Shown here: positions 4,669-39,148 of the stretch, piece after piece
Layout: every line of letters starts with the position of its first letter
Numbering within the stretch: the first letter of the stretch is position 1
Assembly (NCBI GenBank): GCA_003151855.1
Contig: PLYV01000302.1
Location: 1-41,510, forward strand
Source of the DNA: Limisphaerales bacterium
GTDB taxonomy: Bacteria > Verrucomicrobiota > Verrucomicrobiia > Limisphaerales > UBA11358
DNA: 41,510 nucleotides
Direction of reading: 5' to 3'
The notes under the pieces: generated by a model
Told to the model about the DNA's origin: nothing
The model's input: only the letters and a program-made list of their open reading frames with translations
Database searches by the model: none
Made by a program: the position numbers and the translations under genes

Positions 4669-7271
<2,603 letters not shown>

Positions 7272-7282
<11 letters not shown>

Positions 7283-11194: not shown

Positions 11195-11198
11195 GCCT

Positions 11199-13595: not shown

Positions 13596-14219
13596 TCACC
13601 AGTTGTGGTTACAAGCGACAAAAGCGAGAAAAACCAACAACTTCCGGGCGATTCCAACGATTTGAAGCCGGTGAACTTCAACCACCCCCTCGGTCCAAAC
13701 GACAAAATGGGAGCGCGCCAGCTTCTGCTCCACCGGCAGTTGCGCGGCGATGCGGCGGCAGATCTGGTCGTCCGTCCAACCACGCGCCTGCAGGCGTTCG
13801 CGCTGTGATTGCGGCGAACAGGCGACGCAGATGATTTTGTCGAAAGCCGTTTCAGCCTGCGTCTCGAACAGCAGCGGGATGACGACCACGGCCAACGGAA
13901 CATTTTCCTTGCGCCACGCCGCCACCTGCGTTGACCAGCGTTCGCGGATGCGCGGGTGCAGGATGGCTTCGAGCTTTTTCCGCGCGGCGTCATCGGCAAA
14001 AACTTTTTCGGCGAGCGCCACACGGTTGAGCGAGCCGTCGGGCAGAAAAACTTCGCCGCCAAACTCATGGCGGATTTCCACGAGCGCGGGCTGGCCGGGC
14101 TGGACAAGTTCGCGGGCGAGTTCGTCCGTGTCCACGACGCGTGCGCCGGGTTCCAAAAAGAAACCGGCGGCGGTGGATTTGCCCATCCCCACGCCGCCGG
14201 TCAAGCCGCAGAGTTTCAT
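13596..14219 (-). CDS. coaE: Dephospho-CoA kinase
   Basis: A 207-residue P-loop kinase for the last step of coenzyme A synthesis, phosphorylating the 3'-OH of dephospho-CoA. The Walker A motif is at residues 8-16 (TGGVGMGKST). VVDTDELARELVQPG is the conserved substrate region, IPLLFETQAE is the strand after the CoA domain, and RLQARGWTDDQ follows the lid. The last ~20 residues (KLLVFLAFVACNHNW) are hydrophobic and not typical of the family. The start lies seven bases after the S53 peptidase stop, so it is probably cotranscribed with the secreted-protein genes, an odd pairing of housekeeping and surface functions. Confidence 0.93.
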   Translation of the reverse strand: MKLCGLTGGVGMGKSTAAGFFLEPGARVVDTDELARELVQPGQPALVEIRHEFGGEVFLPDGSLNRVALAEKVFADDAARKKLEAILHPRIRERWSTQVAAWRKENVPLAVVVIPLLFETQAETAFDKIICVACSPQSQRERLQARGWTDDQICRRIAAQLPVEQKLARSHFVVWTEGVVEVHRLQIVGIARKLLVFLAFVACNHNW

Positions 14220-14226
14220 GATGCCA

Positions 14227-16698
14227 TCAGGGGCCGACAGCCCGATAGAAGCGCGATGGATAATTGGTGGCCTGTGAATCGGTGAAGTCGAATGGCGGTA
14301 TGCCGCTGAAGAGATCCACCCAGTTCACGAGATTGGTGGAACCTTGAATGGTGGTCAGCACGGCATCCCCGGTGACATGGAACAGGAAGCCGCCACCCGA
14401 CGTGTAACTGACGGGGGAGAGATGCGGTGGCGTGGCGGATTGGAACACGGCAGTCGCCACAATGGTGTCGTCATCTGGGTTAGGATCCGAGGTTCCATCG
14501 CTGGCGACAGTGGCGCTGTTGGTGTAGGTGCCAGGGGAACTGGCGAGAAAGCTCAAGGACAAAGTCGCGCCGGTGTTGGTCGCAAGCGTGCCCAAGCTCC
14601 AAGTGAGCGTGGAACCGATTTGGGAAACCGAGCCAAGCGCGGGCGTGTTCGAAACGAGGATCAGGCCGTCCGGCAGGTTGTCGGTAACATAGACATTGGT
14701 CGAGATGGACGGACCATAATTGGTCACCGCCAGGGTGAAGTTCCAGTGCGCGCCCACGGTCAGAGCCAGGTTGGTGGGCGTGGCGTAAATCTGGTTGTCC
14801 GCCGCAAAGCCGACGGGATCGGCCGTGGTCAGCGTGACAAACCAGCCGTTGGAAATGATGCCGGAATAAGGGGTGCGCGTATCCTGCACAAACAAAAACC
14901 ACGGACCGTTCGGATCGGTGCCGTTCATCACGGAAAGATTGTCGGCCCAGGTTTTGGGCGCGGAAATCACCGGACCGGTGGAAGCAGCACCACCGGTGAG
15001 GGCGTTGATGAGATTGGTGCCATTGGGCGTGCCCAGGCCGGTGCAAAGGTCGTAGCCGGGGACGGCAAAAAAGTTGGTCAGGCTTTGCGACCAAGTGTTG
15101 TTTCCGTTGGTGGTGTCGTTAAAACAGTTGTTGTAAGCCGCCGTTTTGGCGAGCGCGTAAATGGCCGGGTTGATGAAGCCAACCGAGGAACGCCCGTTCA
15201 AAGCGGCCTGCTGGTTGATCAACGCCGTATAGCCCGCCCACAACGGCGCAGCGCAACTGGTGCCGCCAGTGCCGGGATATTCAATGCCGCCGTCGGCGAT
15301 GACATAAACATTGTCGGCGGTCAGCGCCACGTCGGGAATGTTACGGCCGGTGGCGGAACCGTGATTGGTGGAGGTTCCAAAACCCACCTGCCAGGAAGGT
15401 GTCGGGTAATGGTCACTGATGCCGCCACAACTGCCTACGCCATCATAAATAATACCGTAGGTCTGGCCCCAATTCCACACCTGTTCGGAAACATAGGCTC
15501 CGACGGGGCCGACGGTCGTCAAAGTGGTTCCACCCACCTGCGTGATATTAGGACTGCAGGATGGGAAGCCGAACCCGAACGGACTGTCCACCTCGCCTGG
15601 AAGAAACGCATCACTGTCACCGGAGGCGTTGTAAAACGACTGCCCCTGCACGGCCATCTGCTGAAAAATCTGCTCACTGGTGGTATTTGGCCCCCCAGTC
15701 CAGCCCCAAGAGCAACTGACCTGACGGGCAGCATTGTCCACCGCAATCTGGTTCAACACAACATTCGGGAGAAAATTATATGGATCGCCTTCATACACCA
15801 TCACCTGACTCAAGCCCGGGGCCATGGAAATAACCATTTCAATGTCGAGCGAAACTTCCACCTCGCCGCCGTTGAAGGTTGGAGAGCCATTGAAACCGTT
15901 CAACAAAATGTTGGTCAGGGCAACCGTCGGCAGACCGGCCTGCTGCGCATACAAGGCGATGTCGCTGGCAAAATAACCGTCAAACTGAACCAGAGCGATT
16001 TGCTGTCCCGCGCCGGTCAATGTGGTGCCGGGAACATACGCGGCCCGGAAGTCATAGCCCATATAGTTGCCACCCGGCCCGGAACCGGCGCGGGGCTGGA
16101 ACGACGACGGCGCGTTCGTGGCTTGAAGCCGCAGTTTGGGATGGGGACGGGCATAGTTGTTCAACCCGCTGATGTCCGCCACCGGCAATGCGGCGGGAAC
16201 GGTCGGCTCGGTGTCTGGAGAATAAAACGTCCGGTTTTCCGTCGGGTGACGGTAAGTGTGGAGGGTGACATTAAAGGCGTTCTCGACATCCGCCGCCTTG
16301 GCGTTGACCTCGATCAGCATCCGGTTGGCGTGGGTGGCGGCAACCGTCAAGCCGTGGGATTGGGCAAAGGCGACCACCGCCTGATAGTCCTGCTCCGTGG
16401 GGCCAAACTGAGCGGCGAAGTCGGCCGGGGCCAGATAGCGTTGGTAATTGGTGCTGGCCGGGTCATACATCTGCTGGAGCAGCGTGTTCAACGCAGCCTG
16501 ATTGTGCAACGGCAGGCCGATGGCCAGATGCAGCCGGTTGGTGGCGTCAAGCTGACCCGTGGGCGAGAGTTGCGACACCGCCGGCGGCACATGGCCGTGA
16601 AGTTGTTTGACCGTTCCCGGCACGGCGGCGGACGCCGCCAGAGCCATGCCGGCCACGGCCAGCCATCCGAAACCAACCTTCAAAAAAGTCCTGTTCAT
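14227..16698 (-). CDS. Secreted S53 (sedolisin/kumamolisin) peptidase with P-like, DUF11 and C-terminal modules
   Basis: An 823-residue secreted serine-carboxyl peptidase. Order: signal peptide (MNRTFLKVGFGWLAVAGMAL, Ala cleavage region near 25), a pro-kumamolisin activation domain (YLAPADFAAQFGPTEQDYQA), the catalytic domain with Glu281 and Asp285 (GEVEVSLDIEM), oxyanion Asp361 (YNASGDSDAF) and Ser481 (GGTSCAAPLWAG), and the calcium-site end DLCTGLGTPNG. After this comes only the second half of a P-like domain (LSVMNGTDPNGPWFLFVQD), then a DUF11 repeat (VTNYGPSISTNVYVTDNLPD) and a tail with STNLVNWVDL ending in FYRAVGP. The first half of that P-like domain ends the upstream gene. ATG 16698 is chosen over the longer frame to 16833 because of the signal peptide. 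Such peptidases work at acidic pH outside the cell. Confidence 0.93.
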   Translation of the reverse strand: MNRTFLKVGFGWLAVAGMALAASAAVPGTVKQLHGHVPPAVSQLSPTGQLDATNRLHLAIGLPLHNQAALNTLLQQMYDPASTNYQRYLAPADFAAQFGPTEQDYQAVVAFAQSHGLTVAATHANRMLIEVNAKAADVENAFNVTLHTYRHPTENRTFYSPDTEPTVPAALPVADISGLNNYARPHPKLRLQATNAPSSFQPRAGSGPGGNYMGYDFRAAYVPGTTLTGAGQQIALVQFDGYFASDIALYAQQAGLPTVALTNILLNGFNGSPTFNGGEVEVSLDIEMVISMAPGLSQVMVYEGDPYNFLPNVVLNQIAVDNAARQVSCSWGWTGGPNTTSEQIFQQMAVQGQSFYNASGDSDAFLPGEVDSPFGFGFPSCSPNITQVGGTTLTTVGPVGAYVSEQVWNWGQTYGIIYDGVGSCGGISDHYPTPSWQVGFGTSTNHGSATGRNIPDVALTADNVYVIADGGIEYPGTGGTSCAAPLWAGYTALINQQAALNGRSSVGFINPAIYALAKTAAYNNCFNDTTNGNNTWSQSLTNFFAVPGYDLCTGLGTPNGTNLINALTGGAASTGPVISAPKTWADNLSVMNGTDPNGPWFLFVQDTRTPYSGIISNGWFVTLTTADPVGFAADNQIYATPTNLALTVGAHWNFTLAVTNYGPSISTNVYVTDNLPDGLILVSNTPALGSVSQIGSTLTWSLGTLATNTGATLSLSFLASSPGTYTNSATVASDGTSDPNPDDDTIVATAVFQSATPPHLSPVSYTSGGGFLFHVTGDAVLTTIQGSTNLVNWVDLFSGIPPFDFTDSQATNYPSRFYRAVGP

Positions 16699-16732
16699 AA
16701 AACTTCTGGTAAAAAATTCGTTGTTCACGGCA

Positions 16733-19700
16733 TCAGGGGAAAGGCACGCCCGTATAGTTATATCCCGAGGGCTTGTTCGTGCCGGTAACAATCTGCGCGC
16801 TGGGCGGCAGCAAAGTGGCGGCCGCATCGTCAAAGGTCAAGGTGACATGGTTGACGCCATAGCCGTTGCCCGCATGCCCCATGATCAGCGTGCTCTTTTG
16901 CGCCGGAGATTCCACCAGCGCGCCGATGGAATACGCATCGGCGTGCGTCAGGTTGGTCAGGGTCACCGTGGCTTTGACCAGCGATTTGCCGACGCCGCTG
17001 ACGGAGATCAACGACGGATAAGGCGAAGCGTTGGTGTTGTCGTTGATGACGATGGCGTTGGTGCTGGCGAACACCGTCGTCCACGCGCCCAAGGTGAAGT
17101 TGAACGCCGCCGTGCCGATGAACTTGGCGTTGTCATAAAGCGCAAAGGTCGGGGCAATGGTCAGCGTATTGGTGCCGTGGGCCGTAAAGGTGAAGGCGCG
17201 GGAGACCGAGTGGCCATAAACCGTCAGCGGGCCGTAGGTCTGCGAGGCCGGGCTGGGCGCAATCACGCCATTGGTCGCCAGCAGATAGGCTATCAGGTTC
17301 GTCACGTTCAGCCCGGCACTGTCGCGCAGGCCGAAGAGCACTTGCACGGTGTCGTTGGAATTGATGATGCCGTCGGCGGCATGGGAGGTGTAATTGGTGA
17401 CGACCTGCGAACCGGCAGGAATGACATAGCTGCCGCCGTTTTCCAGAATGGTCAGGGTAGCCACGGCCGGCTTCACCAAAATGCCGTTGGTCGGATTGAG
17501 CAGTTGCAGGTTGACCGTGAGATTCGGCTGCACCTTGGTATTGGCGATGAGGGCGACGTTAAAGGTCTGGCTGGTCACGCCGTTGCTGAACACCAGCGTG
17601 CCATTGGTCGAGACAAAGTTTACGCCGGCCAGCGCCGTGCCGTTGGTGGCGAGATAGTCCACGCTGGCCACGCTGTTCGTGTAGCCGGTGCGATCCACTT
17701 CGATGGTGGCGAAAATGCCGTTTTTGAAAACCTTGTAATTGGACTGCGAAAACCGCAGGCCGGCGTTGCTCTCGGCAATCACCACCGTCTGGGTGCTCGG
17801 TGCGGTAAGCAGCCCGGGCGCGGTAACATTGGTCAGAACCACGGTGAAGGCGTGGTCGCCGGTCACCAGGTTGTTGTTGTAGATCGGCACCGAGAAGGTG
17901 TTGGTCGCGAGGCCGTTGGTGAACACCAGCGTGCCGCTGACCGCCTGATAATCCGTGCCGGCGAGGGCCGTGCCATCCTTGGTCGTATAACTGACCTCCA
18001 AAGGAATGTCATTGGTGCTGAACAGCACCGGCTCCACCCGCGGGTTGGAGCAGACCACGGTGACGACCGCAAAACCGGAACTCTTCAGCACCCGCTGCGC
18101 GTTGGTGTTGAAGTGCACGCCCGCCTCGGCATCCTGGATGACCACAACCGTGTTGCTCGGTGCAACAATCTGCGCATTGACCGGGCTGGTCAGTTGCAGG
18201 GTGAAGGTCAGGTCACCGTTGGCGTTGGTGTCATGCACCAGCGGCACGCTGATGGACTTGAACACTTCGCCGTTCGTGAAGTTCAACGTGCCGAAAGTGT
18301 TGGAATAATTGATCCCGGCCACCGCCGTGCCGTTCACCGTGGCGTAATTCACCGACGAAATTGGCGTAAAATTATAGAGGCGCTGGACGATGACGTTGAC
18401 AAAACCGGCGTCTTCGGGCGCGCGATTGGTCGCGGCGGCAAACGCGATGCCGGTGTCGTTGTCCGTGATCGCCACAGCGCAGGTGGTGGGCGACAACAGG
18501 GACGCCCCGCCGTTCGGATTGGAAAGGGTCACCGAGAAATCCACGGTGCCTTGCGCCAGACTGTTATCCACGAGCGGAATGATAATGGTGCCGCTATTCA
18601 CTGTGTCACCAAAGGTCAGGGTGCCGGTGGTGGTGACATAGTTGACGCCCGGCACTGCCGTGCCCACCGTCGTGGTGTAGGCCACCGACACGATGCCAGA
18701 CGCGCCGTTGGTGCGGATGACGGTGAGGTAGGCGTTTCCGTCCCCTTCGTTCACTACGATGCTGTTGGTGAGGAAGCTCAAAATGCCCGGCGCATACACC
18801 GTGTCAATAATGGTCAGCATGGCGTTGGTCGGCGCGGCCAGCACGGTGTTGACGGCATTCGACAAGGCAAAGACCACGGTCTGGTTGCCGCGCGGCAACA
18901 GATTGTTGGTAATCCCAACCTGCACTACTTTGTCCATCTCGCCGGGGTTGAAGGTCACCGTGACATTCGTGGGATAGAAATCCAGACCGGGCACCGCCGT
19001 GCCGTTGGTGGTCGTCAGGAAGTCCACCTGGCAGGTGCCGATCGTGGTGCCGCTGCGGATGACATGGATGTCCGCTTCGCCGGTCAACACATTCTTCGCC
19101 ACGAAAAAGTTTGGCGTCGAAAAACTCACCGTGCTGTCCACGTTTTGAATGGTCAGCACCGCATTGGTCTGGTCGCCATAGCCGGCGGTCGTATTGGACA
19201 GGTTCAGGTTGACGGTCAAGTCCGGCGTGACCACGCCGTCATCCATCACCGGCACCGCCACCGTCTTAAGCACTTCGCCGGGCGGGAAAACAACCGTCAC
19301 GTTTCGGCTCAAGTAATTTGTCCCGGCCACGGCCGTGCCGTCGCTGGTGGTAAAGTCCACCGAGTTGGTGCCGTCCGTTCCGCCAACCCGGCGGATGGTG
19401 ACGAGCGCATCCAGTCCGTTTTCAGGAACCGTATAGCTGGCGCTGGTGAACTCAAATGCGCCGGAACCGGTTTCGGAACCGCCGTAGATCCGGACAATCC
19501 GGTTGTGCGGCTCGCCATTGTATTGGGTAAACGCGCCGCCCAGCACCATCATCTGGTCGGGCGCCTGCACCAGCGCGGCATAGACCGCCCCGCTGGCGCC
19601 GCTGCCGAAATTGATGGAAGCATCCACCGACCCGTCCGGCATAAGGCGCGTGATGCAGTTGCGGGTGACGCCGCTGGCCTGCGTGAATTCACCGGCGACC

Positions 19701-22700
19701 ACGATCCGGTTATCGGCCTGCAACGCCAAGGCGTCCACCGGGCCGTTGGCTCCGGTGCCCAGATTGGCGGCAAAATCTGAATCCACATGACTGTAGCCAT
19801 TGCCGTCATCGAGAATTCTTGCGATATGCGGTGAACTGAAATTTTCAAATCCTGAATAGCCGTCGAAGACATTGGTGAAGTCACCGCCGATGACAATGCC
19901 GCCATCTGGCTGGATAACGATGGCGCGCACCGTGCCGCCAGCGCCGAGGGACGCGTCAAAGTTCGTGTCCACGGAGCCGTCCGCATTGAGGCGGGCAAAA
20001 TGCGCCACTGGGAAGTTGTTGACGTTGGTGAACGCGCCGCCGATCAGCACCTTGCCGGCAAAGGGAGAATTGGTCGGATAAGCCGTCACCGCATAAACCA
20101 CGCCGTCAGGGCCGAGGCCGGGATTGAAGCTGGTATCCACGGAGCCATTGTTGTTGAGCCGGACCAGAAACTGGTGGGGACCGGCGTTGACGGTCTGGAA
20201 TGCGCCGCCGGCATAAATTTTCCGGCTGTCATTGACAAACGTTTCCGCCAGAGAATAGACCGTGTTATCGGCGCCCAAGCCGGGATTGAAACTGGTGTCG
20301 AGCGACCCGTCCGTCATGACGCGGGCCAGCCGGTTGCGGGCAACCCCGTTGACGGTGGTGAAGAGACCACCAATGACCACCCGGTCGTCCGACTGGTTGG
20401 CGAGCGCATAGACCGCATTATTGGCACCCGCCAAGCCAAAGAGGAAGCCGGTGTTATCCACCGAGCCATCCCCATTCAGCCGGGCAAAATAATTTTCCAC
20501 CGAACCATTGACGGTGGTGAACGTGCCGCCGGCGACCAGCCGGCCATCCGACTGCTGGGCCAGCGCAAAAACGCTGCCGTTCATGCCGGGCGAGGCGTTG
20601 AACGTGGTGTCGCCGGAGCCGGGCGGACGGTTGTAGGATTCCGCATCCACGATGTGGACATTCGCGGTGGTCTGACTGCCCAACTGCGAGCCGCCACCGG
20701 GATTGGACAAATTCACCTGGAAATAGAATTGATCCGGGGGGAGATTCTGAAGCAAGTCATCCAAAATCGGCACCGTAAAACTTTGCGCCGTCTCGCCGGG
20801 ACCAAAGAACAGCGTGTCCGCAGTGGCGGAATAATTGACGGTATCCAACGCCGTGTAATCCGCCGTGGCGTAATCCACGCTGGCCGGGATCTGCAAATCC
20901 TTCATCGAGCCGGTGCGGGTGACGGTGATGGTGGCGTAACCGCCGTTTTCATTGACCGTGTAGTCCGCCGCGCTGAACTGGAACGTGCCACCGTTCAGGT
21001 CATTCGTGATGATGACCATCGCGTTGGTCGGCGTGCTGATGGTGTTGGTGAACAAGGTCGGCCAGTTGGTGCCGTTGAGCGCGGGGCTGGACAAGGTGAC
21101 GTTGAAAAAGTTGGTGGATCCCAAGGCGCTGGCAGACAGGAGCGGGACCATGAGGATGCGCGGGGAGACATCGCCGTTGTTCCATTGCAGGTTGGTGCTG
21201 ATGCCGGTGTAATCCGTGCCGTTCACCGCCGTGCCGTTCGAGGTCGAAACGTGGACGGTCACCGTCCCCTTGCTGCCGACGATGCGCGTGACCGTGACCG
21301 GCACGAAGCCGGCGCTGACGGTGCCAAAATAGTTGCTGGCAGTGAAATCAAGGAAACCCGCGAAATTGGGGTTGATGATGCGGAGCCGGGCATCCACCAG
21401 CCCCAGCGAGGCGAGACCGTCGGCGGGCGCCTGAAGGTCGGACAACTGGAGGTTGATGAATTTTTCGACCGCGCTGATATAGTTCGTCGTCTTGACGGTC
21501 ACCGGGAAGAAGTTGGTGGTCGTGCCCTGACGGATGATGACGGGGGCGCTGTTGAAATCATAGTCGCTGCCAACCGTGGCCGTGCTGCCATTCGTGACCG
21601 TCGTGCAGGTGACCGACACATCCCCGTAATTGCCATTGGTGCGGATGATCTCCACCGGCACCACCACCGGCCCGGAGGCCGCGCCGCCGACATAATCCGG
21701 CCCGGCAAAACCCACCACGCCGGACTGGTGCTGGTCATCCACAATCGTCAGCGGGGCGGTGATGAGGCCAAGGGCCACGCCCAGCGGGATGTTCTGGCCA
21801 CCGAGGTAGAACTGGTCGGCGTTGGCCGGGTTGGCGAGCTGGAACTGCGCCGACAGGTCGCCGGAACTGGCGTTGTTGTTGATCACACTGACCAGCACCT
21901 GCGCCTGCGCATCCTCAAAATACCGGCCGAACGGATCCGCCAGAAACGTGTTGGTTCCGAACATGCCGTCGCTGCGCATCCGAGTGAAAGGAATAACCGG
22001 CGGCGAGCCGAGAATATCCCAGCTCATGCCGTAGGCCGGTGCCGGGCTGCTGTAGCTGAAATCGGTCGCGCTCTGCGCCACTCCGGGCACCACCGAGAAA
22101 TTGGCCGAGGCGAAGCCCAGCGACCCGTTGGTGCGAAGCAGGCTCACAAACAGATCCGAGGCGCTCTTGTTGACGGAATAAGAATTCTCGAGCAGCCCAA
22201 TATTGCCCGGCCCGGGCGTGCCGCCACCAATCAGCTTCGCAAAATTGCTGCGGTTGCGGATGCCGTCGCGCTCAAAAGTTTCGTGGTAGGAGTTGGTGTT
22301 GCTTTCCGGACGGACTTTGGGGTTGTATTGTCCGCCACCCACCTGGTCAAACGAACCACCAATCATCACGCTGCCGTCGCTTTGGAGGCCGGACGCAAAG
22401 ACGGTTCCCACCGGGTCGCTGAAATGTTTGCGCGGCAACCCGGCAAACTGGTTGTAGGCGCAGTCCAAAAAGCTGGTGTCCACCGTGCCGTCGCTGTGCA
22501 GGCGGGCAAACCCCAGGCGGTGCGTGCCGTTGACGGCGGTGAAGGCGCCGCCGACATACATGGTGCCGTCCCCCTGCAGGTTCAAATTATACACGGTGCC
22601 ATCCAATCCGACACCGCTGTAGAAATTGGCGTCAATGGTTCCGTCCTGATTCAGCCGGGTGAACCGCTTGACGGCCTGATTGTTGACCTGGCTAAATTCA

Positions 22701-25585
22701 CCGCCCGCCAACACCTTGCCGTCGGGCTGCACGGCCAATGCATATACCGGCCCGTTGATGCCGGCGTTGGGGTCAAACGTGGTGTCCACGGAACCATCGC
22801 CCAGCAGACGCGCAAGGTGGTCTTGATGCGGAATGCCGCTCACCGACGTAAAATCTCCGCCGACATAAATCTGGTTGGCGAAGGAAGACTCCACACTGGC
22901 GGTATAGGACCACGCGGTTCCGAACTGGCCATTCGTCTCGTTCATCACGATGGTGATGGCATTGAATGTCAGACCATTGGTCGGACCAAAGGGAATAACC
23001 AGATGTCCGGTATAACTGACCCAACCGGTGTCGTAAATCAAAACGCCGTTGGTGGGGCTGCCATAATACACCCGCATATCGTCCGGCTGCATCAGCATGT
23101 CATAATCCACCGTCAATATGCCGGAAGGCGCGCCAATATTAATAAAATTATCGTCGCGGGCCTGACCACCACTGGCATTTCGATTGGCTTTGATGAAGGT
23201 TCCCCCCTGTTCGGCGAGGGCATAAACGGTGTTGGTCAGGGCGTTGCCGGCGTTGAACGCGGTGTCCAATGAACCATCATAGTGCAGGCGGGCGAGGTTA
23301 TGGCAGGGTGTCCCGTTGTAAGAAGTGAAATTGCCGCCGATGATGATGTTGCCATCACCCTGCTGCAGGATGGCCCAGACCGGCCCGTTGGCACCCGCGC
23401 CCGGATTAAAAGTGGTGTCCAGCGTGCCATCGCTGTTCAAACGGGCAACATTGCCACGCGGAGTGCCGTTGTAGGAAACGAAGCTTCCGGCGATCATCAA
23501 CTGGCTGGTGTTCGTGGCAAAAGTGATGGCATTGATGAAAATGGGCGGGTTGTTATAGCCCGGCACGGCCCCCACACCACCGCCGGGATTGAAAGAGGTG
23601 TCCAGCGAACCATCCGTGTTGACGCGTGCAATGCAGTTGCGGGCATTACCATTGTATGAGAAAAAGTCGCCAACAATGACGGTCTTGTCATCACTCTGAA
23701 CGGCGACCCCATAGACCTGGCCATCCGTGCCAGGATGCTTCATGTTCGGTGGCGAGCTGCCTATCTGCATGTTTGCCAGATCAAGGTTGAAGTCAGCATT
23801 GAACTTTTCATCCACGGAGCCGGCGGGCGGGTTTTGATCCTGAAACAGCAACGTCACCGTTATCTCCCCCACCATCCCGACATCTCCCGACATCACATTC
23901 CCATGGCCATCCCTGGCGAACAACTCAATGTGAAAATCCTCATTAAAATTGACCTGGCCGTTGTTATACACCGTGAAGGACAGTGGCTTTGACTGCATAT
24001 CCTTGTCGCCCCAGCTGATCGTGCCACTGTAGCCGCCGGAGAAAATAAAGTCCGGGTTTGCCCCCAAGACATTGCCGCCATTCGCCGGATCCGGCGTGGC
24101 GTAATCCGAGCCGGGCTGCAGCGGGAAGCGCATGTTTTGCAGGGTGTTGAAATAATAGGGGTCGGTATTATAGAAAGGCCAGCCGCTGTTGACCTGATAA
24201 TAGATGTTCGTCGCGATGTTTTGCGCGCCGGTGCGGGATACCCAGATGGTATAGGTGTAGGTAGAGTTGGATGTAATCGGCCGCTCAACGCGGTAATTTA
24301 TTTCGCCAAAGTTGAAGGCATTGTCCGTGACATAGTTCGTGACCGGCACCGGCCCGTTGGTGTCAACGATGGCCTCCGCGCCAAATGGCGATGAATAGAG
24401 GTTCAAAATACGCACCAGCGCCTTGTTGAACACCGGATCCACTCGCGGCGCGGACACGGCGGCGGACTCCTGCGGATCCGGCAGCGGATTGGACAGCAGC
24501 ACCGTGAAGTCGCGGTTCGGAGCGGCGGCGGCGGTCCCTGACGATCTGATGGAAATTGAGATGGTCTTGCTCATCTCAAAGTCATCAAAAGTGAGGATGC
24601 CATTGGTAATCGGGGTGTAATCCTTACTTAAGACAGAGGTATTCGTGAAATATGGCAAATGAGTAACAGGGTTGGTAAAAACCGTCACATTTGTTACATA
24701 CCCCACCGCCGGCAAGTCACCGTTGGACAGCAGCCCCGGCGCACCATCCATCGTCTGATACTGGACCGTGGCCCGGCCAGTATAACCGCCCACCCGCGTG
24801 ACGGTGAGCAGCACGCGGGACTCCAAGGTGGAACACTGGTAAAGCAGCAGCGGATTGCCGCTGGCATCCGTGAGGCCGGTTTGCTCCACATTTTCCGAGG
24901 CAAAACGAAACGCCCCGGAGGAATGATAAGCCCAGTTCAAGGCAATCGGCCCGGTGGAGCTATAAACAAACTGACCCTGCCCGGATTTAAACGAAAACAT
25001 GCTGTCGGCGGCAATGTAATAGACCGAGCCGGCCTTGACATTAAACCGGACGCTGCTCGGCCCGGTGAACGGCTGGGGAAAGTTATACAACGAGCTGGAA
25101 GCCGTCACCCCACCACTATTGGTGTCCACCTGATAAGTGTTCTGGTTCGCCCAAGTTTCAGAATAATAATCACTTTGCAGCCGGTTCGGATACAGGTCGT
25201 CATTGGCGGCGATCTGGTAAAGACTAGTAAGGTTCGTGCCGCCATAAACCGCCAGCACCGTGTCCAGCGGCTGACCGTAAAAATTCGTGCTGCCGATGGT
25301 ATCAATCGAAACTTCCCCGTCATTGGTGGCGGAAAACTTGAACCACACCGGCGACTGCGCGGGAAAGCCGGCCAGATTGGGCGTGCCGGGATCCGCCGTA
25401 TAAAAGCTGTTGTCAACGCTGGTGCTGCCCCAAGCGCCGCCAATGGCAATCGGACTGCTGAAGGTGCCGGGCAAACTGGCGTGGCCGGCGTTGGCCAGCA
25501 ACCCGGCCAGAACCACCGCCGCCAGTTTCATTGGGCCGGAAAGAACACCCGTCATTTTTTTAATTATTGTTTGAATTGCTTTCAC
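16733..25585 (-). CDS. Giant secreted Calx-beta / delta-60 propeller protein (2950 aa)
   Basis: Start GTG 25585 has GGAG seven bases upstream and gives a signal peptide (MKLAAVVLAGLLANAGHAS). Order: a ppc-like beta domain (to ~235), two Calx-beta-like domains (~240-580), seven delta-60 repeats (~590-1125; type GPVYALAVQPDGKVLAGGEF), four Calx-beta-type domains (~1130-1650), seven more delta-60 repeats (~1655-2030), six Calx-beta domains (~2035-2715; type TSDGTAVAGTNY), and a C-terminal linker plus the first half of a P-like domain that stops at GYNYTGVPFP. Seven repeats per block suggest two seven-bladed propellers. Calx-beta domains bind calcium in known proteins, so a calcium-stiffened surface fibre or adhesin is likely. 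No anchor motif is seen. It lies 34 bases upstream of the S53 peptidase, with which it may form one unit. Confidence 0.9.
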   Translation of the reverse strand: MKAIQTIIKKMTGVLSGPMKLAAVVLAGLLANAGHASLPGTFSSPIAIGGAWGSTSVDNSFYTADPGTPNLAGFPAQSPVWFKFSATNDGEVSIDTIGSTNFYGQPLDTVLAVYGGTNLTSLYQIAANDDLYPNRLQSDYYSETWANQNTYQVDTNSGGVTASSSLYNFPQPFTGPSSVRFNVKAGSVYYIAADSMFSFKSGQGQFVYSSTGPIALNWAYHSSGAFRFASENVEQTGLTDASGNPLLLYQCSTLESRVLLTVTRVGGYTGRATVQYQTMDGAPGLLSNGDLPAVGYVTNVTVFTNPVTHLPYFTNTSVLSKDYTPITNGILTFDDFEMSKTISISIRSSGTAAAAPNRDFTVLLSNPLPDPQESAAVSAPRVDPVFNKALVRILNLYSSPFGAEAIVDTNGPVPVTNYVTDNAFNFGEINYRVERPITSNSTYTYTIWVSRTGAQNIATNIYYQVNSGWPFYNTDPYYFNTLQNMRFPLQPGSDYATPDPANGGNVLGANPDFIFSGGYSGTISWGDKDMQSKPLSFTVYNNGQVNFNEDFHIELFARDGHGNVMSGDVGMVGEITVTLLFQDQNPPAGSVDEKFNADFNLDLANMQIGSSPPNMKHPGTDGQVYGVAVQSDDKTVIVGDFFSYNGNARNCIARVNTDGSLDTSFNPGGGVGAVPGYNNPPIFINAITFATNTSQLMIAGSFVSYNGTPRGNVARLNSDGTLDTTFNPGAGANGPVWAILQQGDGNIIIGGNFTSYNGTPCHNLARLHYDGSLDTAFNAGNALTNTVYALAEQGGTFIKANRNASGGQARDDNFINIGAPSGILTVDYDMLMQPDDMRVYYGSPTNGVLIYDTGWVSYTGHLVIPFGPTNGLTFNAITIVMNETNGQFGTAWSYTASVESSFANQIYVGGDFTSVSGIPHQDHLARLLGDGSVDTTFDPNAGINGPVYALAVQPDGKVLAGGEFSQVNNQAVKRFTRLNQDGTIDANFYSGVGLDGTVYNLNLQGDGTMYVGGAFTAVNGTHRLGFARLHSDGTVDTSFLDCAYNQFAGLPRKHFSDPVGTVFASGLQSDGSVMIGGSFDQVGGGQYNPKVRPESNTNSYHETFERDGIRNRSNFAKLIGGGTPGPGNIGLLENSYSVNKSASDLFVSLLRTNGSLGFASANFSVVPGVAQSATDFSYSSPAPAYGMSWDILGSPPVIPFTRMRSDGMFGTNTFLADPFGRYFEDAQAQVLVSVINNNASSGDLSAQFQLANPANADQFYLGGQNIPLGVALGLITAPLTIVDDQHQSGVVGFAGPDYVGGAASGPVVVPVEIIRTNGNYGDVSVTCTTVTNGSTATVGSDYDFNSAPVIIRQGTTTNFFPVTVKTTNYISAVEKFINLQLSDLQAPADGLASLGLVDARLRIINPNFAGFLDFTASNYFGTVSAGFVPVTVTRIVGSKGTVTVHVSTSNGTAVNGTDYTGISTNLQWNNGDVSPRILMVPLLSASALGSTNFFNVTLSSPALNGTNWPTLFTNTISTPTNAMVIITNDLNGGTFQFSAADYTVNENGGYATITVTRTGSMKDLQIPASVDYATADYTALDTVNYSATADTLFFGPGETAQSFTVPILDDLLQNLPPDQFYFQVNLSNPGGGSQLGSQTTANVHIVDAESYNRPPGSGDTTFNASPGMNGSVFALAQQSDGRLVAGGTFTTVNGSVENYFARLNGDGSVDNTGFLFGLAGANNAVYALANQSDDRVVIGGLFTTVNGVARNRLARVMTDGSLDTSFNPGLGADNTVYSLAETFVNDSRKIYAGGAFQTVNAGPHQFLVRLNNNGSVDTSFNPGLGPDGVVYAVTAYPTNSPFAGKVLIGGAFTNVNNFPVAHFARLNADGSVDTNFDASLGAGGTVRAIVIQPDGGIVIGGDFTNVFDGYSGFENFSSPHIARILDDGNGYSHVDSDFAANLGTGANGPVDALALQADNRIVVAGEFTQASGVTRNCITRLMPDGSVDASINFGSGASGAVYAALVQAPDQMMVLGGAFTQYNGEPHNRIVRIYGGSETGSGAFEFTSASYTVPENGLDALVTIRRVGGTDGTNSVDFTTSDGTAVAGTNYLSRNVTVVFPPGEVLKTVAVPVMDDGVVTPDLTVNLNLSNTTAGYGDQTNAVLTIQNVDSTVSFSTPNFFVAKNVLTGEADIHVIRSGTTIGTCQVDFLTTTNGTAVPGLDFYPTNVTVTFNPGEMDKVVQVGITNNLLPRGNQTVVFALSNAVNTVLAAPTNAMLTIIDTVYAPGILSFLTNSIVVNEGDGNAYLTVIRTNGASGIVSVAYTTTVGTAVPGVNYVTTTGTLTFGDTVNSGTIIIPLVDNSLAQGTVDFSVTLSNPNGGASLLSPTTCAVAITDNDTGIAFAAATNRAPEDAGFVNVIVQRLYNFTPISSVNYATVNGTAVAGINYSNTFGTLNFTNGEVFKSISVPLVHDTNANGDLTFTLQLTSPVNAQIVAPSNTVVVIQDAEAGVHFNTNAQRVLKSSGFAVVTVVCSNPRVEPVLFSTNDIPLEVSYTTKDGTALAGTDYQAVSGTLVFTNGLATNTFSVPIYNNNLVTGDHAFTVVLTNVTAPGLLTAPSTQTVVIAESNAGLRFSQSNYKVFKNGIFATIEVDRTGYTNSVASVDYLATNGTALAGVNFVSTNGTLVFSNGVTSQTFNVALIANTKVQPNLTVNLQLLNPTNGILVKPAVATLTILENGGSYVIPAGSQVVTNYTSHAADGIINSNDTVQVLFGLRDSAGLNVTNLIAYLLATNGVIAPSPASQTYGPLTVYGHSVSRAFTFTAHGTNTLTIAPTFALYDNAKFIGTAAFNFTLGAWTTVFASTNAIVINDNTNASPYPSLISVSGVGKSLVKATVTLTNLTHADAYSIGALVESPAQKSTLIMGHAGNGYGVNHVTLTFDDAAATLLPPSAQIVTGTNKPSGYNYTGVPFP

Positions 25586-25628: not shown

Positions 25629-25660
25629 ACTAAATTTAATTGATTTCACCGGCCACCGCT

Positions 25661-28600
25661 TCAATACGGATAGGTCAGCCTAGCATCCACTCCCACCTTA
25701 TAAAACTGTTGAACGCTGTTAATATCCATAGGAACAACTAGACTCAATTGTTTAGGTGCTGATGGATAAGCAAGGTATGGGACAGGAGATGGAAAATTGG
25801 TATAGGGAAGCCAGGGACCCGTAGAAAAATTAGTTGCATTCAAAATATAATTCATCGCGTTTGGGATGCTAAACCAGTTCAACACAATAGAGTTTGCAGG
25901 TGTGTTAGTAGCCGTTTGCGTGAGATTAATTTGATCCGCCGTAAAGAACGGCGTCGGATCATAGAGGTTGTAAATCCCGTCGCCGTCCGAATCCATGTCC
26001 GCACTCTGCGCAAGCGCGGCGTTGACCGTGTTGGTGACGCCGGGCGGATAGACCAGATTCGTCGAGCTGAACTGGCCGGCATAAGACGGAACCCAGCGCA
26101 GGCGCCCGCCGTTGAAGCCAAGCTGGCTGGACTGGTCAATGGCTTCCGCCACCGAGCCGCCGTTCATCACCGCCTGGGCGTAATAAATAATCAGGTTGGT
26201 GTTGATGCTCAACCAGGGGAAATCAAAGGGGTGACCAGCGCTGTGGTTGGTGGTGGCATCCCGCAGTTCAAGATAATCCACATACAGGGCGTTGCTGACG
26301 CCGGCGGCACCTTTGAAGATAAACTTGCTGGTGCTGCCGGGCGAGGTCAGCACCAGGCGCCCCAAGGCCATGTTGTTGCTGAACCCAAGCGCAGAAACTC
26401 CCAAGTCGGTTCCCGCCCAGGTGTTGGTGATGGCTTTGTTCGGGCCGGGGCAAATGTTCGTGATGGTCGTGCTCAGCAAATCGCCCGTCGGCGGCTTGAT
26501 GGTCAGGGCAAATCCCTGCCCGCCCGTGCCGTTGGTCCGGCCCACGGTCCAGAAATTGCCGTTGGTCAGGCCGGCATCAATCCAGTTGGTCGGCGCCAGC
26601 GTGAGTGAAAGGCACTGCAACCAGGTGTTACTGATGAGCATGGTGGCGGCGGTCAGGGAAATGTTTCCGCCCGCGTAAATCGCACCGTTGGTCAGGGTGG
26701 TGTTCACGGTTTTCGCGGTGAAATTACCCACGCCGTTGGAAATGACGCCGCTGTTCAGGAAATCATGGGTCGTGAGCACGGTTCCCTGGTCGGCCACCAG
26801 ACCGCTGTTGATAAAGGCATCGTAGGGAACCTGACCCGAAATGATGTTGGTGGTCGTGGCCACGGCGTCCGCCCCGCCGTAAAGGTAATTATGGCCGCTC
26901 CACGTCAGGTTCGTCGAACTCGTCCAGGTCATGATGGAATTTCCCGCCGCACCGGCAGTCGCCGCCGTCACGGTGAAGGCGTGGCTGGCTAGGACACCGG
27001 CATGGACGAGGGCGTTGGACGTGGTGGCCTTGCTGTATTTCGTGCCCGCGCCCGCCGCGTGGTTGATGGCGGCGATCAGGTTGTTCATCGAGGTGTCAAA
27101 GTTGAGACCGATCTTCACCTGGTTCGCCAGCTTGTTGGTGAGCGTGTTCACAAACACATACTGGTTGGTGCCAACGATGACACGGTTGCCCTTTTTGACA
27201 TTCGCGCCAATCAGTTTGGAAAGTTTTCCGGTGGCCTTCACCGCCGGCAATCCAGGGCCGTAAGAAATGCTGTTGGAGGTGCTGATGAACTGCGCCAAAT
27301 TCGAGAGACGGATGGCTCCGTTGTTGGTGAGGCAGCGCATATTGGGCAACTGCGCCGGACCGAAGGTGCCGGTGCCGATCCAGTTCAATTCGCCGTCCGC
27401 CGAGGATGCGCCATTGCCCACGCCGTTGGTGGTCAGCGTTAGATTTTGGGCGTCAATGGACACGGTGCCATAGACGTTCAGGGCATCGCTGATGAGCAGG
27501 TTGGTGGAACCATGGAGAACAAAGTTCTTGATCCAAGGAACCGTGGTGGCCTGCAACCGGCTGCGGACAAGCAGCACGCGGAAATCGTTGGTGCCACCGT
27601 TGGTGTTCGCCTCCAGCCAGCGCGTGCTCCATGCCTGGATGCTGCCGCTCCAGTTGGGCAGGCTGGCGGACAGCAAGTTGCTGATGATCATCTGGCCGTT
27701 GGTGACGCCAAGGTTGAAGTCGGCAAACGGGGAACTGATGGACGCGCCGGCGCTGCCGTCAAACTGGTTGGTGGCGACGATGCTGATGAAGTTCTGGCCG
27801 CCGATGATGGCCTTTTCCAAGTTCAATTCCCGGCTGGCGGTGATTTCCACCCGGGCGGGCAGGTTGGTCAGTGAGCCGCTCGGATTGGTGACGCTGACAT
27901 TGGTGGAAATGGAGGCCGTCAGGATCTGGCCGTTCATGTAGGAATACGGGTTGGAAAAGCTGATCGAGGAAAAAACATTCGAGAAGCCGGCCGTGACCGG
28001 CCCCACCAGCAGCGGCATGGACGAGGCGATGAACGAATAATTGTCCGGCACGCCGTTGTTGACGAAGACGTTGGTGGAGGCGCCCCAGACATAATTGTCC
28101 GTCAGGTAAAGGTAATTGGTGGTGTAATTGCCCGTGATGGGATCCAGCACGGGTCCCACCCATTCCACATGGGCCGCCCCGGATTCGAAGCCCAGCGAGC
28201 CCGTATCAGGGGTGTCAATATAGACGTTGTAAGGGACGTTCGGACTGTCGTTCTCCACAAAGACGGCGCGGTAGATGACGTTGCTGGTGCCCAGCCCTAC
28301 CACATCAAAATAGGAGGCGGAATTGCTCAACATCAGGATGGTCGGAATCGGGGAATAGGAAGATCTGGCAGTGTTGGCGGTGAGATACAACTTCGGGTTC
28401 CATTCGCCGAAAAAGTCCGTGCCGACCGCGCCGGAACTCGTGAAATTCACGTTGTTGAGCAGGAGGCTGCCAAGCAGGAGGCTGTCAATCGTGCCCTGAT
28501 TGGCATCGATCGCGCTTTCCATCGAGAGAACGGCGCGCGTCAGATCCACGTTCTGCCCGTTCAGTTGCAGCCGCCCGTTGGCACCGATGACAATGTTGCC

Positions 28601-29110
28601 GGGGTTGACGATGTTGGTCGCGGAAATGGTGCACTGGCCAAGGCTCGACAGGTAATAGAACAGAAAATCGCCATCGGTGAAAGTATTGTTGCCGTCAAGC
28701 AGCGAGTCCACGCGGATGATGCCTTGGTTGAAAAAGGTATCCGCCAGATAGTTGTTGTTCAACAAGGGCGCGAAGTTTTCGAACTTGGCCACAATCCCGT
28801 AAGTGGCGAGGGAGTTGCTCAGGTTCTGCCCGTTGAAAATCATCAGGCCGTTTTCGCCGTTGGTGTAATAGAGCGTGTTGCCCGGCTCAAACACGGGCAG
28901 CCGCGTGGCGGTGGGATAGCTGTGGTCGCTGATGCTGAAGACGCTCTCGTTGTCGAACGCCGTCGCGTCTATCGTCGGCAGCGGGTTTTCCGGGACGACA
29001 TAGTAGGCGTCGGAAAGGTTTTGAAACAGCGGCTCGGTGGCCATTGCCGGCAGGGCCGGCAGCAGCGCGCCAAGGGCCAGCACGCGGAGGGTTTTGCGGA
29101 ACAGATTCAT
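25661..29110 (-). CDS. Large secreted beta-rich protein with a phage-tail-like internal module (1149 aa)
   Basis: No family recognised over the whole length. A clear signal peptide (MNLFRKTLRVLALGALLPAL, ending ALPAMA) fixes the start at 29110; an ATG at 29149 overlapping the previous stop is the alternative. Much of the protein has short repeating strands with Asn, Gly and Ser (NINSGLVADQGTV-like, TNGAIYAGGNISLTA), suggesting a parallel beta-helix as in filamentous adhesins. Residues ~620-750 differ: VKIGLNFDTSMNNLIAAINH and FTVTAATAGAAGNSIMTW resemble a module I know from phage tail proteins. Near the C-terminus DMDSDGDGIYNLYDPTPF is a thrombospondin-type-3-like calcium loop, followed by an Fn3/STN-type end. 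It sits in the secreted-protein run, 35 bases after the 786-residue gene. Confidence 0.85.
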   Translation of the reverse strand: MNLFRKTLRVLALGALLPALPAMATEPLFQNLSDAYYVVPENPLPTIDATAFDNESVFSISDHSYPTATRLPVFEPGNTLYYTNGENGLMIFNGQNLSNSLATYGIVAKFENFAPLLNNNYLADTFFNQGIIRVDSLLDGNNTFTDGDFLFYYLSSLGQCTISATNIVNPGNIVIGANGRLQLNGQNVDLTRAVLSMESAIDANQGTIDSLLLGSLLLNNVNFTSSGAVGTDFFGEWNPKLYLTANTARSSYSPIPTILMLSNSASYFDVVGLGTSNVIYRAVFVENDSPNVPYNVYIDTPDTGSLGFESGAAHVEWVGPVLDPITGNYTTNYLYLTDNYVWGASTNVFVNNGVPDNYSFIASSMPLLVGPVTAGFSNVFSSISFSNPYSYMNGQILTASISTNVSVTNPSGSLTNLPARVEITASRELNLEKAIIGGQNFISIVATNQFDGSAGASISSPFADFNLGVTNGQMIISNLLSASLPNWSGSIQAWSTRWLEANTNGGTNDFRVLLVRSRLQATTVPWIKNFVLHGSTNLLISDALNVYGTVSIDAQNLTLTTNGVGNGASSADGELNWIGTGTFGPAQLPNMRCLTNNGAIRLSNLAQFISTSNSISYGPGLPAVKATGKLSKLIGANVKKGNRVIVGTNQYVFVNTLTNKLANQVKIGLNFDTSMNNLIAAINHAAGAGTKYSKATTSNALVHAGVLASHAFTVTAATAGAAGNSIMTWTSSTNLTWSGHNYLYGGADAVATTTNIISGQVPYDAFINSGLVADQGTVLTTHDFLNSGVISNGVGNFTAKTVNTTLTNGAIYAGGNISLTAATMLISNTWLQCLSLTLAPTNWIDAGLTNGNFWTVGRTNGTGGQGFALTIKPPTGDLLSTTITNICPGPNKAITNTWAGTDLGVSALGFSNNMALGRLVLTSPGSTSKFIFKGAAGVSNALYVDYLELRDATTNHSAGHPFDFPWLSINTNLIIYYAQAVMNGGSVAEAIDQSSQLGFNGGRLRWVPSYAGQFSSTNLVYPPGVTNTVNAALAQSADMDSDGDGIYNLYDPTPFFTADQINLTQTATNTPANSIVLNWFSIPNAMNYILNATNFSTGPWLPYTNFPSPVPYLAYPSAPKQLSLVVPMDINSVQQFYKVGVDARLTYPY

Positions 29111-29145
29111 GCGTCGGGAAAAAGGTTGGTGATGCGCCGGCAATT

Positions 29146-31506
29146 TCATTGGATGATGAGGGAATAATCCCATTGCACCGTGTTGGAATTGGCGTCGGTC
29201 ACGGTCACGGTGACATCATAAACCAGCGCATTGGGCGCCAGCCGGACGGGCGTGCCGGTCAAAAGACCGGTTGAATCCATCGTCAACCCCGGCGGCAGAT
29301 TGCTCGCCGACCAGGTGAACGGTGCCGTCAGGCGAGTGCTGTCAACGGTGAACTGCACCGGGCCGTAGAAGACGTCACTGGTGCCATTGTCCAGGCTGGT
29401 CGGAGAAACCTGCGCGAGCATCTGGTTGTTCAAGTTGTCCAGACTCTCGGTATCCGGATAAACGACGGGGTAATTGGTGCTGGCGTCAAACGACCCCCAG
29501 TGGCTGGTCTGCACCTGAACCGTCTCGTTGACGTTGGAGAATCCGAGATTGAAGATATTGGTGCCCAAGAACAGCAACTGGTTTTTGAACATGAACTGCG
29601 CCTCGTAGCCGTTGCGGAACGCATTATTGACCTTGTTGTAATCAAAAATCGTGTTCGGCGTGATCGTCCCCGGCCCGGCCAGGTTGCTCAACCTCTGGGT
29701 GTCGTCAAAATTGATGTCGCGGATAACAGAACCGTTGAAGGTGTTTGCCTCCGCCTGATCCGAGCAGGTGATCAGGATTTCCGGCGCGGTCACCACGCGG
29801 TCAAAATGACGCCGAACCCAACGGCTGCCCTGAAGCGCCACCATGTCGTAGCCGTTGGTCTGCGGCTGCCAAGATTCCACGCCAATCAAAGAGTCATAGT
29901 CAACACGGACAAATTTCACCTTGCCAACACCCTGATAATATCCCGTCGTGTTGGTCGGATTATCGCAAGTCACCGGCAGGGTGACATAGGTGTAATTGGT
30001 ATACCAAGTGATGAGGTTTTGCGTATAGCTGGAACCCGTGGTGTTGGTGGACGTGACCGTGTTGGTGCCCGTCGCCGTAAGGCTGTTGGTGGTATAGATC
30101 ACGTTTTTTTGCAGCGTATAAAGAATGTCCACCGGGCAGCGGTTGGTGCCCAGCAGCGGCACGATGTAAAAACTGCCGGCCGGCGTATTTTTAAGCGTCA
30201 CTTTCAAATTGGTGATGTTGGTCGCCAGCGGTGAGCCAAAGGGAGCGCCGACCAGCGGCGCGACCGTCACCGTCTGCAGGATAGCCGGGGCATTCGGCAG
30301 ATAGTAGTTGGTCACCACGTTCGCAAAGGTGGTGACGTATTTGTGCAGCGGATAATAGGAGCGGTTGGTCACCAGCAGCAGGCGCTGTGGCGTGCCGTAG
30401 GGCGAGCCAACCGGCGGTGGCACAAATGTTGACGTGATGGACAGATTGGTCGCCGGAATCCAATAATCATGCGAACTGGTCACCACCAGTCCCGGATAAT
30501 TGCTCTGCATGACGCTCGGTGCATTGGTGGCGGCGGCCGCCAAAAACGCCCCATAATCATAAGTGCCGAAGCCGGTGACGGTGCTGGCATTGACCGGGAA
30601 CAGCGCCTGCTGCCCGGTCGTGTTCGTGACCGCCGAAAAAAGCAGGCTGCCCGCCGGGGCGCTCTCCCGGTTCACGTTGTTCGTGGAATACAGGTAGCGC
30701 AGGCCGGACACGTCATCGCGGGTCAAACCGGTGTAAAACCCTCCCACCTGCAGGCCGCCGCCGCCGAAAATATCGCCAATATTGTCGGCCACGGCGGTGT
30801 TTTGGTCGGAATCCGTATCCGTGGAAAACGGAACCGTCCATGCCAGCGGATTCCCGGGAGCGCAAATTTCAATGATGTAATAGGTGTAAAGGATGTTGTT
30901 GACGTAGGACGAATACTGGATTTGTGCGGGAACCAAACCCAGAGATTCAAAATTGCGCTGCACCACGAGATAGAGCGCCGTCTGCGGGCAGGCCGGGCCC
31001 GGATCGCGATCATGCAGCGTCCAGGTGAACCGGCCCGGCTCCGCCAGTCCCAACTGCTCCACGAGCAGGTGCAAGGTCGCTGACTTGAGATCCGTCAGAT
31101 ACAGCGCCGACGCGTCCGAGTTTTCATGCTGTGAATTCAGCGGAAACGCATTCGGATCCAGCTTGTCCACGTTGGTCAGGCTGTTGATCACGTTCATGGC
31201 GCTGTCCACCGCGGCCACGCCGTTGGAGTGGAAGTAGGTCCAGAAATTCGCGTCGTAGGAATAATAAATGATCGGCACGTTGCGCCGAAATTCCTCAAAC
31301 ATATCCTTCGGGGCACCAATATCCCCCAGATAAATCGGCCCGCCAGGCATGGCGTTGTCCATGTAGGCATAGCCATAGCCGATCACGCCCGTCTGCCAGG
31401 CATCGCCACCGTTGCCCTGCGGCCCCAGCAGGGAAAATCCCCAGCTCGACTGCAGGCCGGCCGCCAGCAACGCCATCCAGAAAATTCTTTTGATATTTCG
31501 CAACAT
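29146..31506 (-). CDS. Secreted protein with C-terminal putative Ig domain (786 aa)
   Basis: Signal peptide at residues 1-23 (MLRNIKRIFWMALLAAGLQS, then SWG). Residues ~25-280 form a globular region (GNGGDAWQTGVIGYGYAYMD, LTRDDVSGLRYLYSTNNV) vaguely like metalloprotease-type secreted proteins. I find no HExxH, so I do not call it a protease. The middle is Asn/Thr-rich (TGTNTVTSTNTTGSS). The C-terminus is a He_PIG-type Ig domain (FTWSASNLPPGLTMDSTGLL, then TGTP and the VTVTVTDANSNTVQWDYSLI strand). The function is unknown; it is probably extracellular. It is 12 bases downstream of the 656-residue gene, in the same transcription unit. Confidence 0.85.
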   Translation of the reverse strand: MLRNIKRIFWMALLAAGLQSSWGFSLLGPQGNGGDAWQTGVIGYGYAYMDNAMPGGPIYLGDIGAPKDMFEEFRRNVPIIYYSYDANFWTYFHSNGVAAVDSAMNVINSLTNVDKLDPNAFPLNSQHENSDASALYLTDLKSATLHLLVEQLGLAEPGRFTWTLHDRDPGPACPQTALYLVVQRNFESLGLVPAQIQYSSYVNNILYTYYIIEICAPGNPLAWTVPFSTDTDSDQNTAVADNIGDIFGGGGLQVGGFYTGLTRDDVSGLRYLYSTNNVNRESAPAGSLLFSAVTNTTGQQALFPVNASTVTGFGTYDYGAFLAAAATNAPSVMQSNYPGLVVTSSHDYWIPATNLSITSTFVPPPVGSPYGTPQRLLLVTNRSYYPLHKYVTTFANVVTNYYLPNAPAILQTVTVAPLVGAPFGSPLATNITNLKVTLKNTPAGSFYIVPLLGTNRCPVDILYTLQKNVIYTTNSLTATGTNTVTSTNTTGSSYTQNLITWYTNYTYVTLPVTCDNPTNTTGYYQGVGKVKFVRVDYDSLIGVESWQPQTNGYDMVALQGSRWVRRHFDRVVTAPEILITCSDQAEANTFNGSVIRDINFDDTQRLSNLAGPGTITPNTIFDYNKVNNAFRNGYEAQFMFKNQLLFLGTNIFNLGFSNVNETVQVQTSHWGSFDASTNYPVVYPDTESLDNLNNQMLAQVSPTSLDNGTSDVFYGPVQFTVDSTRLTAPFTWSASNLPPGLTMDSTGLLTGTPVRLAPNALVYDVTVTVTDANSNTVQWDYSLIIQ

Positions 31507-31518
31507 ACAAATTGATGA

Positions 31519-33489: not shown

Positions 33490-33497
33490 GGTAGGCA

Positions 33498-33527
33498 GAC
33501 AAAATAAACCACCCCGGCGGGTTTGTC
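33498..33527. other. Imperfect inverted repeat just before the 656-aa gene
   Basis: GACAAAATAAACC at 33498-33510 pairs with GGTTTGTC at 33520-33527 (GAC with GTC, AAACC with GGTTT, and a bulge between). It sits directly upstream of the start codon on the minus strand and 80 bases after the exonuclease stop. It could be a weak attenuator separating the secretin/exonuclease genes from the secreted proteins. No strong T-run follows on the minus strand. Confidence 0.35.
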
Positions 33528-33606
33528 TAAAAATTCCCGCCGTTGCCGCCGGCTGCGTTTCCGCACCGGCCACTTGGTTGTTCCAGCTTTGCAAATTCAT
33601 TTTCAA

Positions 33607-37364: not shown

Positions 37365-37415
37365 GGCAAATTGAGGTTCTGAAAAGTGTCGCGGTCAATT
37401 AGAGATATTTAACAG

Positions 37416-38201: not shown

Positions 38202-38202
38202 T

Positions 38203-39147: not shown

Positions 39148-39148
39148 A

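Follow-up and report, generated by a model that had tools for sequence, protein, structure and literature searches.

A P-domain divided between a giant secreted protein and the adjacent protease in a genus of Limisphaerales

A giant secreted repeat protein, encoded in a bacterium whose named relatives are Limisphaerales (Verrucomicrobia subdivision 3), ends inside a P-domain, and the rest of that domain is carried by a protease whose gene starts 34 bases downstream of the giant's stop. The first-pass annotation had taken the giant open reading frame (ORF) as a complete protein; its C-terminus is instead a truncated P-domain, and the arrangement is genus-wide, the split domain having been read at the loci of 29 genomes of the genus. 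The window, by which we mean the whole stretch of DNA analysed, is an entire contig of 41,510 bases from a metagenome-assembled genome that is about 70% complete. In the reading that we favour, the two halves would probably reassemble in trans, docking an exchangeable protease on the tip of the giant.

The giant protein and its surroundings

The features of the window are collected in Table 1. The giant ORF is 2950 aa long when read from the GTG at 25585 and 2965 aa long from the first GTG at 25630. The former, with GGAG 7 nt 5' of it, is judged the better start; residue numbers (aa) of the giant refer to the 2965-aa form. On the plus strand opposite the giant, two antisense frames rich in R, G and H are open at 16607-19780 (1057 aa) and 20000-23272 (1090 aa), and these are probably a by-product of codon use.

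Table 1. Features of the window at and around the divided P-domain, in the order of reading on the minus strand.
Feature	Position	Strand	Remark
Conserved upstream genes	25661..41023	minus	1170-, 786- and 695-aa ORFs, 5'-3' exonuclease, secretin with TPR, two small ORFs, PilM-like
Giant secreted protein	16733..25585	minus	stop at 16733; signal-peptide-like N-terminus by eye
N-terminal domain of giant	24917..25498	minus	PPC-like by eye; no match in Pfam scan
Two proposed Calx-beta domains	23813..24925	minus	first marginal (22.1 bits), second without match
Delta-60 block 1, seven units	22325..23716	minus	closed propeller in model
Insertion of about 110 aa in blade 4 of block 1	22877..23206	minus	no match in Pfam scan
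Four proposed Calx-beta domains	20639..22243	minus	two over cut-off, one marginal, one undetected
Delta-60 block 2, seven units	19460..20572	minus	profile matches
Six Calx-beta domains	17417..19468	minus	all exceed Pfam cut-off
Conserved domain ahead of P-domain N-half	17051..17419	minus	CARDB-like by eye only
N-terminal half of P-domain	16736..17095	minus	giant C-terminus, ending FP before the stop
S53 (kumamolisin-like) protease gene	14227..16698	minus	own signal-peptide-like start, ATG at 16698
S53 activation peptide and catalytic domain	14968..16689	minus	catalytic residues align with kumamolisin
C-terminal half of P-domain, 54 aa	14803..14964	minus	fused behind S53 domain
DUF11 and C-terminal domain ending FYRAVGP	14227..14802	minus	protease C-terminus
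coaE	13596..14219	minus	conserved downstream boundary of locus

Two delta-60 blocks of exactly seven repeats had been proposed for the giant, and the count was confirmed. Pfam DUF5122 (delta-60) gave 14 stretches over the cut-off (E 5e-134), and a profile made of 13 blades taken from the window itself placed seven units at aa 639-1102 and seven at aa 1687-2057, with one extra match (E 0.4) ignored in the unit count. By the same profile, two blocks of exactly seven are present in 29 of 40 rows of relatives, some of these rows coming from the same genome, and in the remaining 11 the unit count is 5, 6 or 8 or there are additional blocks, in several because the retrieved stretch stops within them. 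An odd pattern of blocks with 4, 7, 5 and 2 units was found by this profile in the giant of L068 (the G005 locus), apparently a propeller broken by a further insertion. The window's own genome also holds a second delta-60 protein (L065, G000:C69:8000-20000), whose open frame of 941 aa has five units above the cut-off.

An insertion of about 110 residues (aa 809-918), which some relatives have and others lack, breaks up blade 4 of block 1. An AlphaFold2 model of this block, made from 26 rows (mean pLDDT 78, pTM 0.73), closes as a propeller despite the insertion, and its residues 25-534 match seven-bladed propellers in the fold search, namely the designed v13WRAP-T (Z 29.0) and RACK1 (Z 28.7), with rmsd 2.2-2.4 over about 280 residues. 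Because of these matches, block 1 is predicted to be a closed seven-bladed propeller, as had been supposed, and not a solenoid.

About twelve Calx-beta domains had also been described, in the layout two, propeller, four, propeller, six. When the segments were scanned singly against Pfam, eight of the twelve exceeded the cut-off (aa 1422-1537, aa 1533-1664 and all six after block 2) and two stayed below it, with 22.1 and 23.1 bits; aa 425-606 and aa 1130-1320 gave no Calx-beta match in these scans. The two seven-unit blocks and the last six Calx-beta domains of the layout thus stand, and the first two and the middle four are recovered incompletely. Taken together, the giant with two seven-unit blocks and a Calx-beta rod is well supported. 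Stiffening of the rod by calcium and a role of the propellers as binding heads, both proposed in the first-pass annotation, would be putative features, and no ligand came to light.

The locus is bounded downstream by coaE in all ten regions fetched. Upstream of the giant, the order PilM-like protein, two small ORFs, secretin, exonuclease and three large ORFs is kept in nine of ten regions, in full or up to the end of the available stretch, and is not recognisable in the tenth (L213). The order is also found in two other families, the exonuclease having no match there. The secretin with TPR repeats, the two small ORFs and the PilM-like protein form a conserved cluster (34482-41023), a possible dedicated export machine, and export may go through this secretin. 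A stand-alone 5'-3' exonuclease of the PolA N-terminal type (33607-34485) is flanked by the secretin on one side and the large secreted ORFs on the other, a position kept in the genus. Downstream of coaE, a glycogen-type cluster (5348-13394) encodes a 4-alpha-glucanotransferase, two GH13 enzymes and GlgB.

The gene between the giant and coaE encodes a peptidase of the S53 (sedolisin) family, to judge from the presence of both the activation domain and the catalytic residues. Pro-kuma_activ matches with E 4e-30, and the alignment with kumamolisin (E 1.9e-52) is matched at GEVEVSLDIE, GDSD and GGTS, which we take to be the catalytic-residue sites of S53.

The divided P-domain and its distribution

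The giant's C-terminus reads ...NKPSGYNYTGVPFP up to the stop, and the P-domain is resumed in the C-terminal region of the protease as SAPKTWADNLSVMNGTDPNGPWFLFVQD...GW. In relatives from other families, the same stretch is continuous in one chain through the split point. The intact domains of relatives match PF01483 over the Pfam cut-off in all six cases tested; neither half of the window alone gave a PF01483 match in Pfam, and no complete P-domain is present there in one chain. The intact domain of one relative (L080) was modelled with pLDDT 94.7 and pTM 0.90. Its closest folds are the P-domains of furin (Z 13.8, rmsd 1.9 angstrom over 125 residues) and Kex2, both of which stand behind catalytic domains. 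A search of solved structures by P-domain profile returned only chance-like matches (best E 0.02), and it was the fold search that succeeded. Placed on the L080 model, the split falls at residue 119/120, in the loop between the strand 105-108 and the helix 131-134, leaving a larger part of eight strands at the C-terminus of the giant and the last part on the protease.

The split site is identical in all 29 split giants, of which 28 end in FP and one in FH directly before the stop, and the protease tails resume at (S)AP or (S)PP. In intact giants FP is less fixed at this site, being present in 20 of 34 (20 of 33 without L144) as read by eye in relatives that are not independent of one another. 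An intact form is present in relatives and both parts are conserved, as is expected of a naturally split protein. In the giants of other families, used as outgroups, the domain is intact in 33 of 33, and one congener (G233) has an intact domain that is followed by coaE.

Behind the split giant lies an S53 domain in 28 of 29 genomes, two of which run off the contig before the tail. In the remaining genome (G035), the slot holds a metalloprotease of reprolysin-like type that has the same tail of half a P-domain; this protein (L070:10703-12883, which is L047) is metzincin-like, with HEVGHNLGLHHQ and a Reprolysin_3 match of E 7e-6. A C-half profile run over 49 genomes of the genus gave one strong match per genome in 29, with 28 matches on the protease and one in the intact giant of G233. 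Counted by genome, the split N-half is present in 29, the protease-borne C-half in 28 and both in 27. All three mismatches fall at contig ends: G234 and G238 have the N-half only and their contigs end inside the S53 gene, and G010 has the C-half only, on a contig whose beginning lies near the S53 gene. In 18 of the 49 genomes this point showed no half and no intact giant; either the two-part system is dispensable or it is missing from those 18 assemblies.

Several loci were kept out of these and the following counts. L074 (same contig as L117), repeat-genome loci (e.g., L067, L068, L070-L073, L076, L077 and L079) and three other P-domain proteins that are not giants (L063, L064 and L120) were dropped, and the weak N-half matches of G001, G021 and G022 were left out together with L081, which belongs to another type of protein than these giants. 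The tail counts do not include L113 and L115 (contig ends), and the S53 counts do not include L047, which has no S53. L116 is absent from the C-half identity count (61.1) and L139 and L142 from the split-versus-intact identity count, the pattern having missed them.

A frameshift or assembly error was ruled out by the recurrence of the arrangement in 29 genomes and by the distance between the halves, which keeps no fixed frame (modulo 3, remainder 0 in 7, 1 in 7 and 2 in 13 of 27 loci). An intron or mobile element between the halves was rejected as well: Rfam gave no match in 14000-17500 at E 0.1, no direct repeats were seen flanking the inter-half segment, and the second ORF spans the junction. 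An artefact at large, including a decayed gene, might be suspected where the window is the whole contig of a 70%-complete assembly, and it is barely conceivable when the second gene has its own start and these observations on genomes, frame, introns and repeats are set against it.

The halves might also pair otherwise, the N-half dimerising or being completed by another protein and the C-half finding another partner. Weaker P-domain-like matches do occur elsewhere in these genomes, but no genome has more than one strong C-half match, and this match adjoins the giant wherever the contig allows, which makes such pairings quite improbable. That the giant is an ordinary fibrillar adhesin, with a Calx-beta rod, two propeller heads and a gene end of no importance, is suggested by the repeat architecture itself; this would leave unexplained the conserved split, its single-residue position and the one-to-one pairing with a protease tail, and we hold it to be very improbable.

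Conservation of the halves and exchange of the protease

Over 26 split loci, the mean pairwise identity is 56.3 for the N-half and 60.2 for the C-half. The corresponding parts of ten intact domains, all from another family (f9), have 56.8 and 62.3. Judged from these sequences, the halves evolve as slowly on separate proteins as in intact domains, with no relaxation. Within the protease, the C-half (61.1, 26 loci) is more conserved than the S53 catalytic domain in the same chain (57.7, 25 loci), and the DUF11 (45.4) and the terminal domain (47.3) are both below it.

In the outgroups, the slot between the giant and coaE is filled by proteases of different kinds: among 24 slots examined, 10 hold S8, 5 M36, 3 M6 and 4 S53 peptidases, and 2 are without a peptidase match. 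Most of these slot proteases have a P-domain behind the catalytic domain. The slot of G264 (L134:5707-8406) has a Sortilin-Vps10 match in place of a peptidase, and the slot gene of L131 gave no catalytic match.

The P-domain of furin stabilises its catalytic domain within one chain, and the main rival to docking takes up this role: the halves would no longer meet, the C-half would pack on the protease and stabilise it in one chain, and the giant would end in a trimmed, stable domain. The position of the P-domain behind the catalytic domain, both in the closest folds (furin and Kex2) and in most outgroup proteases here, speaks for a C-half that serves the protease alone. We nevertheless consider it unlikely, because the C-half amounts to just 54 aa, or roughly one third of the domain, because the N-half keeps the rate of the intact domain and stops at the same residue in 28 of 29, and because the C-half persists through changes of the catalytic domain between two unrelated kinds.

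This change can be followed in the trees, whose supports are SH-aLRT values from short searches. In 27 split loci the tails make up a single clade (97), and nearest to them are the intact tails of G233 and G083 (98). The N-halves cluster with the P-domain that belongs to the giants, and the terminal P-domain side of the locus is where the tails are placed. Among the split loci, the 28 S53 domains are not one clade; they fall into three groups of 8, 14 and 6, the last of which is joined with unlinked S53 genes (99), and the supported branches on the S53 tree require at least two changes. The simplest account is that catalytic domains were replaced and the coupling was kept; if unlinked S53 genes were derived from split copies, this would explain part of the S53 tree too.

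The distances of S53 and C-half, which belong to one polypeptide, are uncorrelated (r 0.06, permutation p 0.20, 26 loci). Those of N-half and C-half, on two polypeptides, are correlated (r 0.50, p 0.0005, 26 loci; 0.41 once the neighbouring domain is allowed for), a correlation that may reflect common descent only, since the two genes are linked.

As to the origin of the split, the insertion of an S53 gene into a fused giant would fit, and so would two deletions in a giant-protease locus. The single clade of the tails speaks for one origin. In the N-half tree, the intact G233 stands inside the split group near its base; a return to the intact state is thus possible for this genome.

Proposed docking and comparison with known systems

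According to the docking that we propose, the giant and the adjacent protease would make up a two-part machine. Both would be exported separately, and the two halves would complete one jelly roll non-covalently outside the cytoplasm, which would dock the protease on the end of the propeller/Calx-beta rod. The giant would thereby regain in trans the DUF11 and the terminal domain, both of which intact giants carry covalently. The halves would serve as a fixed coupling and the catalytic domain as an exchangeable cassette, and the propellers would probably be involved in a putative binding of substrate or surface. We lean slightly towards a wider reading of the trans-split P-domain as a docking coupling, in which the giant scaffold ends in an open jelly roll and the secreted protease supplies the missing strands; the coupling would have been kept in most of the genus throughout its history and the catalytic cassette exchanged, even for another kind of protease, making this a natural plug-in enzyme holder.

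If the halves assemble, they would represent a natural split-domain coupling of a scaffold and a secreted enzyme, available in nearly thirty natural pairs and with an intact control. Those giant verrucomicrobial surface proteins whose annotation goes no further than their repeats would thereby gain a suggested function, and a new protein-tagging pair would become available. Even without assembly, two halves of one domain that keep the intact rate on two proteins require an explanation.

Each of the domains is already known. In open-licence PubMed Central, we found no report of a P-domain divided between scaffold and enzyme, and no literature on a split P-domain or on this giant/protease gene pair. 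Gene fission with reassembly has a precedent in Split-Doa10 of Kluyveromyces, which was split at the base of the genus by an intervening sequence of 508 bp (PMC3464245). The likeness lies in a gene split by an intervening sequence at the level of a genus; Split-Doa10 is a membrane ligase cut between transmembrane helices (PMC3464245), whereas here a single globular domain is cut and its second half is joined to an unrelated enzyme.

The P-domain of proprotein convertases (PF01483; furin, Kex2 and Aeromonas ASP) shares fold and sequence family with the intact relatives. In the matched structures the domain belongs to one chain, and here it is shared by two gene products. Kumamolisin and other S53 peptidases have the activation domain, catalytic domain and residues in common with the window protease, which differs by its extra C-terminal tail of half a P-domain, DUF11 and terminal domain. 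Subtilisins with P_proprotein or DUF11 domains have been listed, and S53 is not mentioned in the passages concerned (PMC2605481). DUF11 has been named as a stalk domain of fibrillar adhesins, which resemble the giant in having a long stalk built of beta-domain repeats, together with candidate heads (PMC9210967). The giant differs in being paired with a protease, and a surface anchor and adhesion would be hypothetical for it.

In cohesin-dockerin scaffolds, a non-catalytic giant holds separately secreted enzymes via a fixed pair of modules. The likeness is that of a giant holding an enzyme by a fixed pair; in the system proposed here the coupling would be formed by two halves of one domain, with one enzyme per giant.
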